A DNA stretch of 64,000 nt from Clostridiaceae bacterium BL-3 (GTDB lineage: Bacteria; Bacillota; Clostridia; Clostridiales; Clostridiaceae). The notes beneath the pieces are model-generated. The model was not told where the DNA came from, searched no databases, and was given only the letters and a program-made list of their open reading frames with translations. The position numbers and the translations under genes were made by a program. The stretch is from NCBI GenBank assembly GCA_902809985.1, contig CADDXC010000001.1, positions 2,232,001 to 2,296,000 of the forward strand, written 5' to 3'. Positions 11,342 through 17,113 of the stretch are shown piece by piece. Position 1 is the first letter of the stretch; every line of letters begins with the position of its first letter.

Positions 11342-12097
11342 CTATCCACCTAATATTTTTCTCATGTTCTTTAACACTTTCTTTTCTATTCTAGAAACCT
11401 GTACCTGATTTATACCCAACATTTTAGCTACCTGAACCTGAGTTTTATCTTTAAAATATCTAAGCATTATAATCTGTCGTGATTTTACATCTAAATCTTT
11501 AAGTGCCTCTTTAAGTGCAATTCTATCTATCATTTCTACGTCTTCATTTGGATTATTACTTATTTTATCTATTAAGAGAACCGGGGAGCCATCATCCTGG
11601 TGTATAGTATCATAGAGATACTGCAAACTGGTAACAGACTCCGTAGCAAATATCAGATCTTCAACTTCAATACCAGAGTATTCAGCCAGCTCTTCCACAG
11701 TAGGTTCTCTATTCAACTTTTTTGTCAATGCCTCTCTATCATAATGAAGTTTTTTAGCTGTATTTTTTACACTTCTACTCACTTTTATCATTCCATCGTC
11801 TCTTAAAAATCTCTTTATTTCTCCTAATATCATTGGTACAGCATATGTAGAAAACTTTACATTGTAACCTGGATCAAAGTTATTTATTGCCTTCATGAGT
11901 CCCATACATCCTATTTGAAATATATCCTCATACTCGTATCCTCTATTTAAAAATTTTTTGCTTATAGTTGATACCAATGGCAAATTCAATTTTACCAATT
12001 TATTTAAGGCATCTTTATCCCCTTGCTTTGCATATTTAATTAAGTCCAAGTTATCTTCATAACTACACTTTAATTTTTTTACTGCTTCTTCATCCAT
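11342..12097 (-). CDS. sigF: Forespore sigma factor SigF (SpoIIAC)
   Basis: 251 residues from the ATG at 12097, which has TTAGGTGA seven bases upstream; a GTG three codons earlier is the other possibility. Region 2 is seen in YEYEDIFQIGCMGLMKAINNFDP and KFSTYAVPMILGEIKRFLRDDG, region 3 in REPTVEELAEYSG, and the region 4 helix-turn-helix in KTQVQVAKMLGINQVQVSRIEKKVL. It directs the first forespore transcription after septation and is held inactive by SpoIIAB. It is the last gene of the spoIIAA-spoIIAB-sigF operon, and its start lies 10 bases after the spoIIAB stop. Confidence 0.97.
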   Translation of the reverse strand: MDEEAVKKLKCSYEDNLDLIKYAKQGDKDALNKLVKLNLPLVSTISKKFLNRGYEYEDIFQIGCMGLMKAINNFDPGYNVKFSTYAVPMILGEIKRFLRDDGMIKVSRSVKNTAKKLHYDREALTKKLNREPTVEELAEYSGIEVEDLIFATESVTSLQYLYDTIHQDDGSPVLLIDKISNNPNEDVEMIDRIALKEALKDLDVKSRQIIMLRYFKDKTQVQVAKMLGINQVQVSRIEKKVLKNMRKILGG

Positions 12098-12106
12098 ATC
12101 ATTCAC

Positions 12107-12535
12107 CTAACTTAATGAATTAAAAACTTTTTTCATTATCAATCTTGTCCCTTTATTTTTTTTAGATTCCACTTTAAGCGAATCCATAAAAGTCTCCATT
12201 ACAGTAAATCCCATTCCTGATCTTTCAAGATCAGGTCTAGATGTATAAAGCGGCTGTCTCGCTAAATCTATGTCCTCTATTCCCACTCCCGTATCTTCCA
12301 CAGTTAAAGTAAGTTCTCTGTTTTTAATAAAAGCCTCAATTTTAACTATTCCTTCCTTATTTTCATAACCATGAATAATAGAGTTCGTAACAGCCTCCGA
12401 AACTGCAGTTTTAACATCCGTTAATTCTTCTATAGTAGGATCTAACTGAGACACAAACGCTGCTACTGCTACTCTGGCAAAACTTTCATTTTGTGATTTA
12501 CTAATAAACTCTATTTTCATACTGTTATCGTACAT
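12107..12535 (-). CDS. spoIIAB: Anti-sigma-F factor / serine kinase SpoIIAB
   Basis: 142 residues from the ATG at 12535 ([10 protein letters not shown]), which has GGGGGGATAAAT upstream; a longer frame from 12586 would overlap spoIIAA. It is a GHKL ATPase: the N box is [11 protein letters not shown], the G1 box [11 protein letters not shown], and the G2 region [14 protein letters not shown]. It binds and inhibits SigF and phosphorylates SpoIIAA. It sits between its two partners, 16 bases after spoIIAA. Confidence 0.97.
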
Positions 12536-12551
12536 AATATTTATCCCCCCA

Positions 12552-12887
12552 TTAAATATTCTCAATTGCTTCCTCAACATTATCATAAAGCTTTATAATT
12601 TTAAACAATCCTGAAAGTTCAAATACTCTCTTTACCAAATCAGTTGCTCCTGCAATACACATGGAACCGTTCTTTAAATTTAGTTTTTTATACCTTCCAA
12701 TAACCACCCCTATTCCAGAACTGTCCATAAAACTTACTCCTGAAAAATCCATTATAAGTTTGTTCAATCCATCCCTGTCCAATCTATCATCAATTTTAAT
12801 TCTAACTTCCTCTGCACTATGATGATCTAATTCTCCTTTTATACTCACTATGAGTTTATCGATTTTAATTTGAAATTCTAGATTCAT
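12552..12887 (-). CDS. spoIIAA: Anti-anti-sigma factor SpoIIAA
   Basis: 111 residues, a single STAS domain. The phosphorylation motif is FMDSSGIG at 53-60; S56 aligns with Ser58 of the Bacillus protein. When dephosphorylated it frees SigF from SpoIIAB. The ATG at 12887 has only a weak TTTGGA upstream. First gene of the operon; the region ahead of it (12888-13279) holds several inverted repeats, and no clear sigma-H promoter was picked out by eye. Confidence 0.97.
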
Positions 12888-12972
12888 GAATTATCCAAAG
12901 CTCTACTAAAATTACACTATAAAACTTCTAACATAATTTTAGCGTTAAAACATAATTTTAACTTTAATTTAC

Positions 12973-13046
12973 CATATAACATATAATAGCCTTAATGTTA
13001 TATGACTAAAGTCTAGTACACTAAACTTTAGCATATGCAAATATGC
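12973..13046. repeat. Three tandem inverted repeats upstream of spoIIA
   Basis: In the 470-base gap before spoIIAA three hairpins stand in a row: CATATAAC/GTTATATG (12973-12980 and 12997-13004), CTAAAGTCTAG/CTAAACTTTAG around a four-base loop (13006-13031), and GCATAT/ATATGC (13031-13046). No gene is seen in 12888-13279. The function of the hairpins is unknown; they could be leader structures of the spoIIA transcript or protein-binding sites. Confidence 0.5.
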
Positions 13047-13279
13047 ATAGTCCGAGCCAGACATTTTTACCCCCCTTCTGTTATTTTTTATGTAATACCT
13101 TTGTAATCTATAGAATAAAATATTTACCTTAATTATTATTCTATAAGTGTAATAATCTTCCTTTTTTTTTCGTTAGTCATTTTATTATTCATTTTTACCA
13201 TATATTATATTTTTAAACATATATATAAATTATTATCAAATATATGTCATTTTTCAGCGCCCCTATAGAAAAATATAGG

Positions 13280-13358: not shown

Positions 13359-14186
13359 TTATTTTGTTAAATTCTCTATAAATTTTGGAAGCACAAAACA
13401 GGCTTTATGCAATTCTTTTGTATAGTACTTCGTATTTATATTCACCGATGAAGATAAATCTACTTTTTGTGGATCATATTTTTTAGAACCCAATGTAAAA
13501 CTCCAAAATCCACTTGGATAAGTCGGTATACCTGCCATAAACAATTTTGTTATTGGGAAAACAGCTTTTGCATCATTGTAAATGCCTTTTACCACCTCAG
13601 GCAAATAAAAAGGTGTTTCCGTCTGAGCCACAAATATACCATTTTCTGTCAAGCACTCATCTATTTCCTTATAAAAACTTCTACCAAAAAGGCCTTCTGC
13701 AGCACCAAAAGGATCTGTGGAATCCACTATAATAACATCAAAACTGTTCTTATGTTCATGTACATACTTTATCCCGTCCCCAATAAAAATTTCACATCTT
13801 GGATCATCTAATGCAAAGCTTATTTCAGGAAGGTATTTTCTACACTGTTCAATGACCTCCTGATCAATTTCACAGAGAACAACTCTTTCCACCGTAGGGT
13901 GCTTTAAAATCTCCTTTACGGCGCCACCATCTCCTCCCCCAACTACAAGCACTTTTTGGGGATTCGGATGGGTAAATAGAGGTACATGGGTTATCATTTC
14001 ATGATACACGTATTCATCTTTAACAGTGGTTTGCACTATTCCATCTAAAACAAGCATTTTTCCAAAACAATATGTATCCACTATAGCTAAATCCTGATAT
14101 TTAGTTTTCTTTCTAATCAAAGTTTGTTTTATCTTATACGTCATAACAGCATCTGAGATTTGACTTTCTCTTAACCATAAATCCAT
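13359..14186 (-). CDS. speE: Spermidine (polyamine aminopropyl) synthase
   Basis: 275 residues from the ATG at 14186 (MDLWLRES), which has GGGGGG upstream; the open frame extends further but without a site. Key family features: [21 protein letters not shown] (the substrate loop), [16 protein letters not shown] (decarboxylated SAM binding), and [12 protein letters not shown] with the catalytic aspartate. It transfers an aminopropyl group to putrescine in the cytosol. A decarboxylase that could start polyamine synthesis is at 42.9 kb, not adjacent. It lies 120 bases downstream of the methyltransferase gene on the same strand and may share its transcript. Confidence 0.95.
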
Positions 14187-14305
14187 AAATATACCCCCCA
14201 GCCATCTTAAAATATAATTTTTTCCTACAGAAAACATCATTATAATAATAATTTTATATCGTGACAATAAAATTTTCAATAACCTCATAAAAATCTCTAT
14301 TACAG

Positions 14306-16072
14306 CTATTCATCAATACAATAATTCCTTTTTACAATTTTAATTTCACCTTCTGTCAATCCAAAAAATTTGTATAAATAGCTTTCTGCATCATATTTTT
14401 CACAAAAATCAATAACGGGAATACTCAGTTTCATCAAATTATTTGGATAGTATTCATACAAATTCTCTCCTAATTTTTTGCCAAAGGTTTTAAAGTAAAA
14501 TTCATATAAAGGGCTGTTTAAAATTTTAAGCAGATTATCATACGTAAAGTTTACATTTTTCTTTAACACCAGTGAATATACGTCTGCACTAAAATAACTT
14601 CCTTCATCTAAAGCAAACCTATTGTTTTTAGATTTGTATGGAAATACAATTTTCTTGCCTTCAAATATCTCAGGTTTTCTTCCCCATTGAAGCTCATACC
14701 ATTTTCTAATACCCTTTTTACACTCTCTTCTATGTAAAAGCTTCTCCTTACAGGTCTTTATATAATTTATGGAATTTGGATAATCTTTCTCATTTTTTAT
14801 AAAATTAGAATATATAATAAACTTTCCTTTATACATTATTTTATTTCTATGTATATAGCTGCTTTTTATCCAGGGTCTGATTAATTTACCTTCAATATTT
14901 TTTTCCTTCAAAATACATTCGTCTATTATAAACGCCTTATCACAACCCGTTATTACTCCCTGGTGGCTTTCACAAATATCCTTTAAAGTATATTTACTTC
15001 TTTTTTTTATTTTATCAACTATTCTTCTCTCAATTTTATCAATAAATATCCAACCTTTATTTTCCAGAGAATCCTGATCTATAAAGAAGCTCCTATATTC
15101 TCCATATTTTTTCAAAAATATGGAGCCGTAAGATCTCTTTTTTCTCAGCTCAATACCTTTTTTAGGTTTTATAACTTCTATATTATTATGTGAATTCTTC
15201 TCTTTTATCAAAAACATTATTATAGGGTCAATCCCCACATTCTTAAAGGGACGTATTCCATAAAAATCTACAATTTTATATATAGAGGCATTTTCAATTA
15301 AAAATTTTCTAAGTTCCTCACCGCTGCAGGATTCACAAAAATATCTAGAAGTAATAAATCCAAGCTTTCCTACTTTTTTCAAACAATCCAGAGACTTTTT
15401 TAAAAAGCAATAGGATATATCACTTTTATCTCTGTATATATTTCCATATATTTTTTTTAAATCCTTATAGTAATCTCTATCTACACGTTTATGTCCTATA
15501 TAGGGCGGATTACCTATAAATATATCAAATTTTTCGTCTATATTCCCTATTAAAAAATCCTTTACTTCAAAATTTTCTGAATTGAATCCTCCGCTAATAC
15601 TGAATAGATCTATTTTTAAAATTTTTATTGCGGTTTCATCTATATCAAAACCGAATAAATTATTGTACACTATATGCTTGTTTATATCCTTAATTTGTAA
15701 ATCAATATTATTGTGATTATCTATGGCTTTTATATTATTTTCAAATATGCTTTTTAAATAGTAAAAACATGGACATATCAAGTTCCCGCATCCACAAGAA
15801 GGATCTATTATTTTTATAAATGGATTTTCAATTACATCCATGGGATTTATTAAATTTTCAAGCATATATCTTGATATTTCATAAGGTGTATATATTACAT
15901 CTTTTGCTTTACTTACTATTTCCTGATTATAGTAATACTCAGCAAAATATTTATCTCTTTCGATATTAAATTTTTTTTTACAATTTTCTATAGATCTAAA
16001 TTTAATTTTACTATCTAATTTTGTATTTATAAGTTTATAAATTTCTTCAATATTTTTAATAAAATCATCCAC
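14306..16072 (-). CDS. Orphan N6-adenine DNA methyltransferase, CamA-like
   Basis: 588 residues from the GTG at 16072, which has TGGAGAT six bases before it; a GTG nine codons upstream has no site. Counting from that upstream GTG, motif I is DPSCGCGN (99-106), motif II FDIDE (151-155), and the catalytic motif IV NPPY (197-200), the order of a gamma-class amino-methyltransferase. The C-terminal part (about 370-590) is a TaqI-type target-recognition domain. From memory of the C. difficile sporulation methylase CamA, several blocks look nearly the same: [27 protein letters not shown] and [17 protein letters not shown] (457-474). No restriction gene is nearby, so it is an orphan. Its neighbours are sporulation and cell-wall genes. 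Confidence 0.88.
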
Positions 16073-16222: not shown

Positions 16223-17113
16223 ATGTTCAAAAAATTAATATCCATCTTTTTAATGTGCATAATTTTTTTGTATTCCTATACTGTTATGGCTTTTTATAAA
16301 AAAGAGGCGCCTTTAATATATAACAAATCTTGGGCCTTTCAAACAAAAGCCAATCCTAAAGAAAATAGTACTCAAAAGTCCGCCAGCAGGCTTCAGAATT
16401 TAGATGTATCTAAATTGGACAGAAGTGAAAAAAACTGGTTTTTTAAACCCAACAACAAAGGCACTCCTTCAGAGATACCTGAAGACATTCTAAAACTTAC
16501 AAATAAATACTCTGCATACTATTTAGGCAATACCTCTAAAAAAGTACTCTATTTAACCTTTGATGAAGGATATGAAAACGGCTATACTTCAAAAATACTG
16601 GATATACTAAAATCAAATAATGTTCCTGCTGCTTTTTTTGTTACAACACCCTATATAAAAGCCAATGCAGATTTGATAAACAGAATGGTAAAAGAAGGAC
16701 ACCTAGTATGCAACCATTCCACAAAGCACCCTTCAATGGCGGAGACTGCAAAAGATCCTATAAAATTTGAGAATGAATTTTTAGTAACAGAAGATGCCTA
16801 TAGAGAAGTCACAGGCAAGGAAATGCCGCATTTTTTTAGACCCCCTATGGGAAAATACAGTGAGCTTTCTCTATTTTATACTAAAAAATTAGGTTATAAA
16901 ACTATTTTCTGGAGTTTTGCCTATAACGATTGGAATGTTAAAAGGCAGCCTTCTCCTATAGAGTCTCAAAAAATGATAAGCCGCAGGACTCACAATGGAG
17001 CAATTGTATTGCTTCATGCAGTTTCGAAAACAAATTCTGAAATATTGGACTCTGTAATAAAAGATTGGAAAAATCAAGGTTATACCTTTGAAAGCTTAGA
17101 TAAATTGCCATAA
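16223..17113 (+). CDS. pdaA: PdaA-type polysaccharide deacetylase
   Basis: 296 residues. A signal peptide or anchor covers about 1-24, then a linker, then a NodB-type deacetylase (about 105-290). Motif 1 is TFDEGYENGYT, motif 2 HSTKHPSM, motif 3 RPPMGKYS, with LLHAVS near the end holding the C-terminal histidine. The TFD-x-GYENGYT form is that of PdaA, which makes muramic delta-lactam in spore cortex peptidoglycan, rather than of chitin deacetylases. AGGTAGGTGATG lies upstream of the ATG. It is divergent from the CamA-like gene, sharing the 150-base gap with it, so both may be expressed in sporulation (inference). Confidence 0.9.
   Translation: MFKKLISIFLMCIIFLYSYTVMAFYKKEAPLIYNKSWAFQTKANPKENSTQKSASRLQNLDVSKLDRSEKNWFFKPNNKGTPSEIPEDILKLTNKYSAYYLGNTSKKVLYLTFDEGYENGYTSKILDILKSNNVPAAFFVTTPYIKANADLINRMVKEGHLVCNHSTKHPSMAETAKDPIKFENEFLVTEDAYREVTGKEMPHFFRPPMGKYSELSLFYTKKLGYKTIFWSFAYNDWNVKRQPSPIESQKMISRRTHNGAIVLLHAVSKTNSEILDSVIKDWKNQGYTFESLDKLP

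Follow-up and report, generated by a model that had tools for sequence, protein, structure and literature searches.

A CamA-family orphan adenine methyltransferase beside the sigma-F operon of a Clostridiaceae bacterium

Clostridiaceae bacterium BL-3 encodes, next to its spoIIA (sigma-F) operon, a DNA methyltransferase of the same family as CamA of C. difficile. The gene lies in a stretch of 64,000 nucleotides (GCA_902809985.1, contig CADDXC010000001.1, positions 2,232,001 to 2,296,000 of the forward strand), hereafter the window. Judged from its sequence, the enzyme is very probably a conserved orphan specific for CAAAAA(R), and we hold with high confidence that it is a solitary CamA-family N6-adenine methyltransferase whose orphan mark plays a regulatory or housekeeping part. 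Its family, predicted fold, recognition residues, clade and gene order all speak for this, and no restriction gene lies nearby. The methylated motif is taken from papers on relatives; that the enzyme is active on it in this organism, and has any regulatory role, we infer.

14306..16072, minus strand: CamA-family orphan DNA adenine methyltransferase, 588 amino acids (aa) from GTG 16072; open frame to 16099

GTG 16072 is the better start because a GGAG lies 8 bases 5' of it and because the starts of several relatives align with it; the coordinates given by an earlier sequence-only reading of this DNA are thus right. That reading had also described gamma-class motifs and a TaqI-type recognition domain, and both are present: Pfam finds Eco57I (E 3e-25), together with MmeI_Mtase (2e-11) and TaqI_C (3e-10), and the Pfam scan found no additional domain in the 588 aa.

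The solved structure closest in sequence to the window methylase is CamA (E ~1e-103, 351 bits), the runner-up being M.BseCI (2e-24). C. difficile CamA is also the closest by predicted fold, in a re-examination that aligned 1000 PDB chains from Foldseek's list. Over CamA residues 14-530 the two proteins are 41% identical overall, 36% in the catalytic domain and 48% in the recognition domain, which is not a low figure for the latter. Two blocks that the sequence-only reading had likened to CamA indeed occur in both proteins; at the first two motifs CamA differs, carrying DISCGCGN and ADIDE. CamA (CD630_27580, PDB 7LNI/7LT5) resembles the window methylase in fold, gamma-class motifs, S-adenosylmethionine (SAM)-binding aspartates, 13 of 15 base contacts and the lack of a linked restriction gene. 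It is unlike it in sequence (the 41% identity) and in belonging to a separate clade, and the window genome lacks the spoIIE target site called Me3 (see below). Moreover, neither spoIIA nor a pdaA-like gene is found in the 6 kb around camA, whereas the window methylase stands beside both. M.BseCI (7QW5) and M.TaqI (2ADM) are likewise gamma-class N6-adenine methyltransferases with a TaqI-like recognition domain. The observation of a CamA-like methylase is confirmed, and chance is excluded by the E-value of the CamA match and by conservation in 12 of the 13 genomes of the genus.

Residues were compared in an alignment of CamA 14-530 with 87 family members (the window and 86 loci, including a long form, L054, and a piece of a broken gene, L053), using 15 base-contact positions given for CamA in PMC8187626. 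Thirteen of these residues are identical in the window methylase, and S514 and I517 differ (S514 to G, I517 to L); Y30 is replaced by I and K173 by R. The catalytic, SAM and cage positions N165, Y168, F253, D60, D114, D149 and F200 are kept in 87/87 members, as are the base contacts Q346, I349 and K172. R425, W439, R441, K456, S472 and A473 are kept in 86, Y521 in 85 and Q438 in 84; in CamA, R425 contacts the G opposite C1 of CAAAAA (PMC8187626). Other positions vary more: Y455 is Y in 60 members and F in 26, the H171 position is H in 48 and the K173 position is S in 54. A nearly identical set of contact residues is also kept across the wider family, and the literature searched holds no report of this conservation. 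Because the recognition residues are kept, we predict with good confidence that the window methylase reads CAAAAA. The catalytic domain would bind SAM, the TaqI-like domain would read CAAAAA, most likely followed by a purine (CAAAAAR) as in most measured relatives, and the last A of CAAAAA would be flipped out and methylated at N6. Since no cognate nuclease was found near the methylase, the mark would most likely serve regulation or housekeeping, altering how proteins bind at promoters that bear a site.

Published methylomes describe similar marks in relatives. The motif of C. difficile CamA is CAAAAA (PMC8187626). In A. woodii, N6-methyladenine (m6A) occurs in CAAAAAR at 98.9% of sites, and plasmid-expressed Awo_c14460 gave the motif (PMC6700114). 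For C. pasteurianum, one study found 97.1% of 3899 sites methylated and a second 24.0% of 3945 (PMC4690370, PMC5027557), and a lone M gene, CP6013_1459, was predicted for CAAAAAR (PMC5027557). More than 85% of sites are methylated in C. autoethanogenum (PMC6507227), and m6A was found at CAAAAAR or CAAAAA in C. acetobutylicum (PMC10865971) and at CAAAAA in C. paradoxum JW-YL-7 (PMC4859166). It has been suggested, beside a mention of the C. difficile mark and sporulation, that CAAAAAR and CRAAAAR might share a function in Clostridium (PMC10745947). CAAAAA methylation beyond C. difficile is already in print, and the methylomes of relatives are mostly CAAAAA or CAAAAAR.

Some of these species can be placed among our genomes. 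Locus L164 belongs to C. paradoxum JW-YL-7. We take G005 to be C. ljungdahlii, G002 C. kluyveri, G159 C. acetobutylicum, G308 A. woodii and G588 E. limosum, and by the presumed genome and position we assign L305 to Awo_c14460. In the tree the A. woodii enzyme sides with the window methylase, and it has the same recognition residues, including G514 and L517; it differs in its length (692 aa, the N-terminal part being ~100 residues longer than that of CamA) and in having I at position 253, and its host genome, if the L305 assignment is right, has no spoIIE match. The C. pasteurianum genome G147 carries L061, 55% identical to the window methylase and upstream of spoIIA; this is presumably CP6013_1459, whose motif rests on prediction and methylome. 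Position 514 is S in C. difficile (CAAAAA) and G in the C. pasteurianum, A. woodii and E. limosum types (CAAAAAR), a rule broken by C. paradoxum (G514 with CAAAAA) and C. kluyveri (G514 with CAAAAAT).

In the window's genus, 12 of 13 genomes match at E <= 1e-40, the source genome included. Among the 12, G006 carries the gene in two pieces, and G010 matches only by a longer, 42% relative elsewhere in the genome, the orphan gene being missing there. This 913-aa relative (L054:5554-8292, 48% identical to CamA) has extra N- and C-terminal parts outside the Pfam methylase domains and may be a restriction-modification (RM) fusion. In the family, 98 of 206 genomes and 32 of 46 genera match (E <= 1e-30), and in a class sample of 391 genomes 46 match at 1e-60, these carriers being a mix of the orphan clade and longer forms. 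According to PMC8187626 CamA is seldom met in other bacteria, and PMC13395437 calls it specific to C. difficile. We reject this specificity: a scan of 84,980 species genomes (tblastn, E <= 1e-3, CamA-first alignment) returned 187 stretches that encode a relative. The best 80, each at least 38% identical, came from C. difficile, many other Peptostreptococcaceae (among them Asaccharospora, Romboutsia, Metaclostridioides, Terrisporobacter, Intestinibacter and Peptacetobacter), Tissierella and allies, Clostridiaceae and a single record under the label Calditrichales. Among clostridia CamA-type methylation is a broad trait, contrary to the specificity claimed in print.

Two trees, a quick one of 100 rows and a careful one of 50, were rooted on L001, a paralogue from the same genome. 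In the careful tree the window methylase falls in a Clostridiaceae clade (15 rows, support 100/99) apart from the Peptostreptococcaceae clade that holds CamA (8 rows, 100/100), and the quick tree likewise separates the two. The A. woodii and E. limosum type lies on the window's side (branch 99/99). In the careful tree neither clade includes the forms longer than 750 aa (L054, L153, L158, L164), and in the quick tree two Tepidibacter long forms adjoin the CamA clade (support 97). The sequence-only reading had raised the possibility of a CamA orthologue; the window methylase is a CamA-family enzyme, and on these trees orthology in the narrow sense is not supported. Its clade is one inherited mainly within the Clostridiaceae, and in most genera seen the gene stands next to spoIIA.

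Several observations weigh against a conserved CAAAAA(R) mark. The residue that stacks on the flipped adenine in CamA, Y30, is V in 75 of the 87 members, I in 11, F in 1 and tyrosine in none; S514 has become G in all 85 members that have a residue there; and the I517 position is L in 54, A in 17 and I in only 9. The genome taken as C. kluyveri (G002) has the contact residues of the window methylase. C. kluyveri is reported with CAAAAAT, not CAAAAAR (PMC13101501). The methylated fraction is low in C. ljungdahlii (10.7%; PMC6507227) and in E. limosum (37.3%, although an evolved clone had 83.7%; PMC9503626), and CRAAAAR in C. carboxidivorans was ascribed to an RM fusion (PMC10745947). Finally, the gene is in pieces or interrupted by stops in four genomes (G006, G110, G152 and G175), and genus g3 contributes none of the 98 matching family genomes; the gene is therefore dispensable.

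The neighbours of the methylase in the window are as follows.

13359..14288, minus strand: speE, spermidine synthase; by inspection, its true start is probably ~100 bases further in
12552..12887, minus strand: spoIIAA, anti-anti-sigma factor, first gene of the spoIIA (sigma-F) operon
12107..12586, minus strand: spoIIAB, anti-sigma factor
11342..12106, minus strand: sigF, sporulation sigma factor F
16223..17113, plus strand: pdaA-like polysaccharide deacetylase, divergent neighbour of the methylase

This arrangement, a methylase between spoIIA plus speE and a divergent pdaA with no restriction enzyme near, is as the sequence-only reading had it: the Pfam scan found no restriction enzyme among the window neighbours (spoIIAA, spoIIAB, sigF, speE, polysaccharide deacetylase, Rrf2, WecG and a penicillin-binding protein). 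The spoIIA linkage is conserved in relatives as well. We compared 87 loci, the window and 86 fetched from 97 other matching genomes, the remainder being fragments, broken or weak. spoIIAA, spoIIAB or sigF lies downstream on the same strand within ~7 kb in 64 of the 87, spread over 24 genera; among the remaining 23, seven have less than 4 kb of downstream sequence, and 12 of the other 16 come from one genus. A divergent pdaA-like gene stands within 400 bp of the methylase in 45 loci and speE is near it in 30. Nineteen further neighbour clusters recur in at least five loci, and 18 could be identified, an 81-aa one having no match: they comprise spoVAC, spoVAD, spoVAE, parts of formiminotransferase, an aromatic amino acid lyase, glycosyltransferases, flippases, transporters, LuxC- and LuxE-like and other metabolic enzymes and a sigma-54 activator. 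No restriction enzyme is among these 18; a distant, unlinked nuclease beyond the scanned neighbours and clusters is possible. The literature searched makes no mention of the spoIIA linkage. In 58 of the 87 loci (e.g. L069:5324-5956) a formiminotransferase-cyclodeaminase gene stands close by on the methylase's strand, usually upstream of it.

In C. difficile, the sporulation effect is attributed to just one CAAAAA site, Me3, which lies next to a Spo0A box in the region before spoIIE (PMC13395437). From two C. difficile genomes we recovered three CAAAAA sites before spoIIE. By eye, Me3 (GACAAAAA) is present in 10 of 13 Peptostreptococcaceae and Tepidibacter genomes, or 8 of 11 excluding C. difficile, a count that leaves out Tissierella (no site) and Caloramator (misplaced start). 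Among loci L211-L223, those outside C. difficile that have Me3 are E. tenue, two Metaclostridioides mangenotii, strain VA2, Asaccharospora, CCUG 7971, Romboutsia maritimum and Tepidibacter, while Romboutsia timonensis, Terrisporobacter and Intestinibacter have GACAAAAT. To judge from these sites, CamA control of spoIIE may extend through the Peptostreptococcaceae.

The window's own clade gives another picture. No CAAAAA occurs in the 400 bp before spoIIE of the window genome. We fetched 80 spoIIE regions from the 193 family genomes having the gene; starts were called automatically, and three carriers and one comparison genome may have theirs placed within the gene. Within 160 bp before spoIIE, 9 of 50 family carriers have CAAAAA, with 10 sites vs 14.2 expected from base shuffles, and 4 of 30 comparison genomes (29 without the methylase gene plus G010 with its long form) have it, with 5 sites vs 9.1 expected. 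With no site in the window genome and no enrichment in the carriers, we reject a conserved spoIIE route for this clade. Across the 13 genus genomes no CAAAAA site is shared upstream of spo0A or spoIIGA, spoIIGA having GACAAAAT at a like place, and both are rejected as conserved targets in the genus. CAAAAA is found upstream of spoIIAA in 27 of 64 loci, and enrichment there is rejected (32 sites vs 25.5 expected), as is enrichment between the methylase gene and pdaA (1 vs 6.5 expected, 45 loci). No substitute target site was found among the four early promoters (spoIIE, spo0A, spoIIGA and spoIIAA), and genome-wide we saw no CAAAAA avoidance or enrichment of note. That methylation of the spoIIE promoter operates in this organism as in C. 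difficile is unlikely, and the methylation-controlled sporulation envisaged by the sequence-only reading finds no footing by the known route.

Carriage of the methylase was compared with that of spoIIE in the class sample (46 carriers, 345 non-carriers). At E <= 1e-50, spoIIE is found in 33/46 carriers vs 248/345 non-carriers (odds ratio 0.99). At the curated cut-off, which 112 of the 391 genomes pass, the counts are 31/46 vs 81/345 (odds ratio 6.7, Fisher p 6e-9), a figure confounded by kinship. Many spoIIE matches below the cut-off span the whole model, in open frames of ~800 aa, and because they are full-length the loose count probably gauges sporulation better, while the association at the curated cut-off would mostly reflect kinship. 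Whether carriage tracks sporulation thus turns on the spoIIE threshold chosen. Thirteen of the 46 carriers have no spoIIE match. Inside the family spoIIE is present in 193 of 206 genomes, nearly all of them, and the association test therefore tells little there.

What the mark does can be read in several ways. The first possibility is that the enzyme regulates sporulation by the CamA mechanism, a methylated CAAAAA beside the Spo0A box raising spoIIE expression and with it sigma-F activation. The shared enzyme family, the sufficiency of one site (Me3) in C. difficile (PMC13395437), the recurrence of Me3 in 8 of 11 other Peptostreptococcaceae and Tepidibacter genomes and the linkage of the methylase gene to spoIIA are all consistent with it; however, the empty 400 bp before the window's spoIIE, the 10 sites vs 14.2 expected in the carriers' promoters, the GACAAAAT at spoIIGA and the absence of a shared site at spo0A in the genus leave it very little credence. 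It is also improbable that the enzyme is the modification half of an RM system, whether one that still exists or one that has been lost, and is retained as a relic or to protect against incoming elements. Longer family forms do exist (913 aa in G010, 948 aa in Tepidibacter), there are matches to type IIG and BREX profiles, and the C. carboxidivorans RM fusion has a similar motif (PMC10745947), but the window protein is 588 aa with no extra Pfam domain, the recurrent neighbours that were identified serve sporulation, folate, polyamine, cell-wall and metabolic functions and include no nuclease, one locus is retained across 24 genera, and CAAAAA sites are not avoided.

A solitary CAAAAA(R) methylase could, on the other hand, lay down a housekeeping mark unlinked to sporulation, the spoIIA neighbourhood being an old gene order inherited vertically. 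The equal frequency of spoIIE in carriers and non-carriers at the loose threshold argues for this, as do the 13 carriers without spoIIE (including Peptostreptococcus canis, L312, and probably A. woodii, whose identity we presume) and the lack of a clear CAAAAA excess before spoIIAA. The association at the curated cut-off goes the other way, although kinship confounds it and many weaker matches are full-length; the retention of the spoIIA linkage in 24 genera and the effect of the C. difficile family member on sporulation also speak against it. We regard a housekeeping mark as quite plausible, if somewhat short of an even chance. Alternatively, the methylase may be kept beside the sigma-F operon in most of the carrier genera of the Clostridiaceae because it influences the sigma-F branch there by way of methylated sites that differ from the spoIIE site of C. 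difficile, a proposal we put forward as tentative and rather doubtful. If it were true, two bacterial families would have tied one mark to one and the same developmental step, each through promoters of its own. Clostridiaceae carriers would be harmless, tractable hosts for the sporulation question, and they offer a natural comparison of the same mark with and without the spoIIE site. CamA has been proposed as a drug target, partly on account of its printed description as rare outside C. difficile (PMC8187626) or specific to it (PMC13395437); with relatives that have nearly the same DNA-reading residues, CamA inhibitors might hit other clostridia.

A structured RNA of ~210 nucleotides lies at 12885-13095 of the window (minus strand), between speE and spoIIAA, ending at the spoIIAA start region. 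Its fold (RNAalifold, 12 sequences) is multi-branched, with 50 pairs, 22 of them with compensatory changes; 95.1% of cells are paired vs 85.9% in shuffles and 30-47% in slid controls, the structure being derived from the same sequences. The covariance model matched 14 of 72 chosen sources (E < 1e-40), 12 of which had gone into building it; the matches fall in genera g1, g10 and g17, and all 14 lie upstream of spoIIAA. No Rfam family reached its gathering score for the element, and when two loci were scanned permissively the only families to appear were unrelated and scored far lower. Because its closing helix ends just before the start codon of spoIIAA, the element is a candidate leader or switch of the sigma-F operon.

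A SAM riboswitch is found at 1252-1356 of the window (plus strand, 81.6 bits); SAM is also the donor of the methylase, and a connection is improbable. The source genome has nine Eco57I-type methylase matches, which include frames of 1239 and 1254 aa, ~6 kb apart (C1:1207443-1214280).
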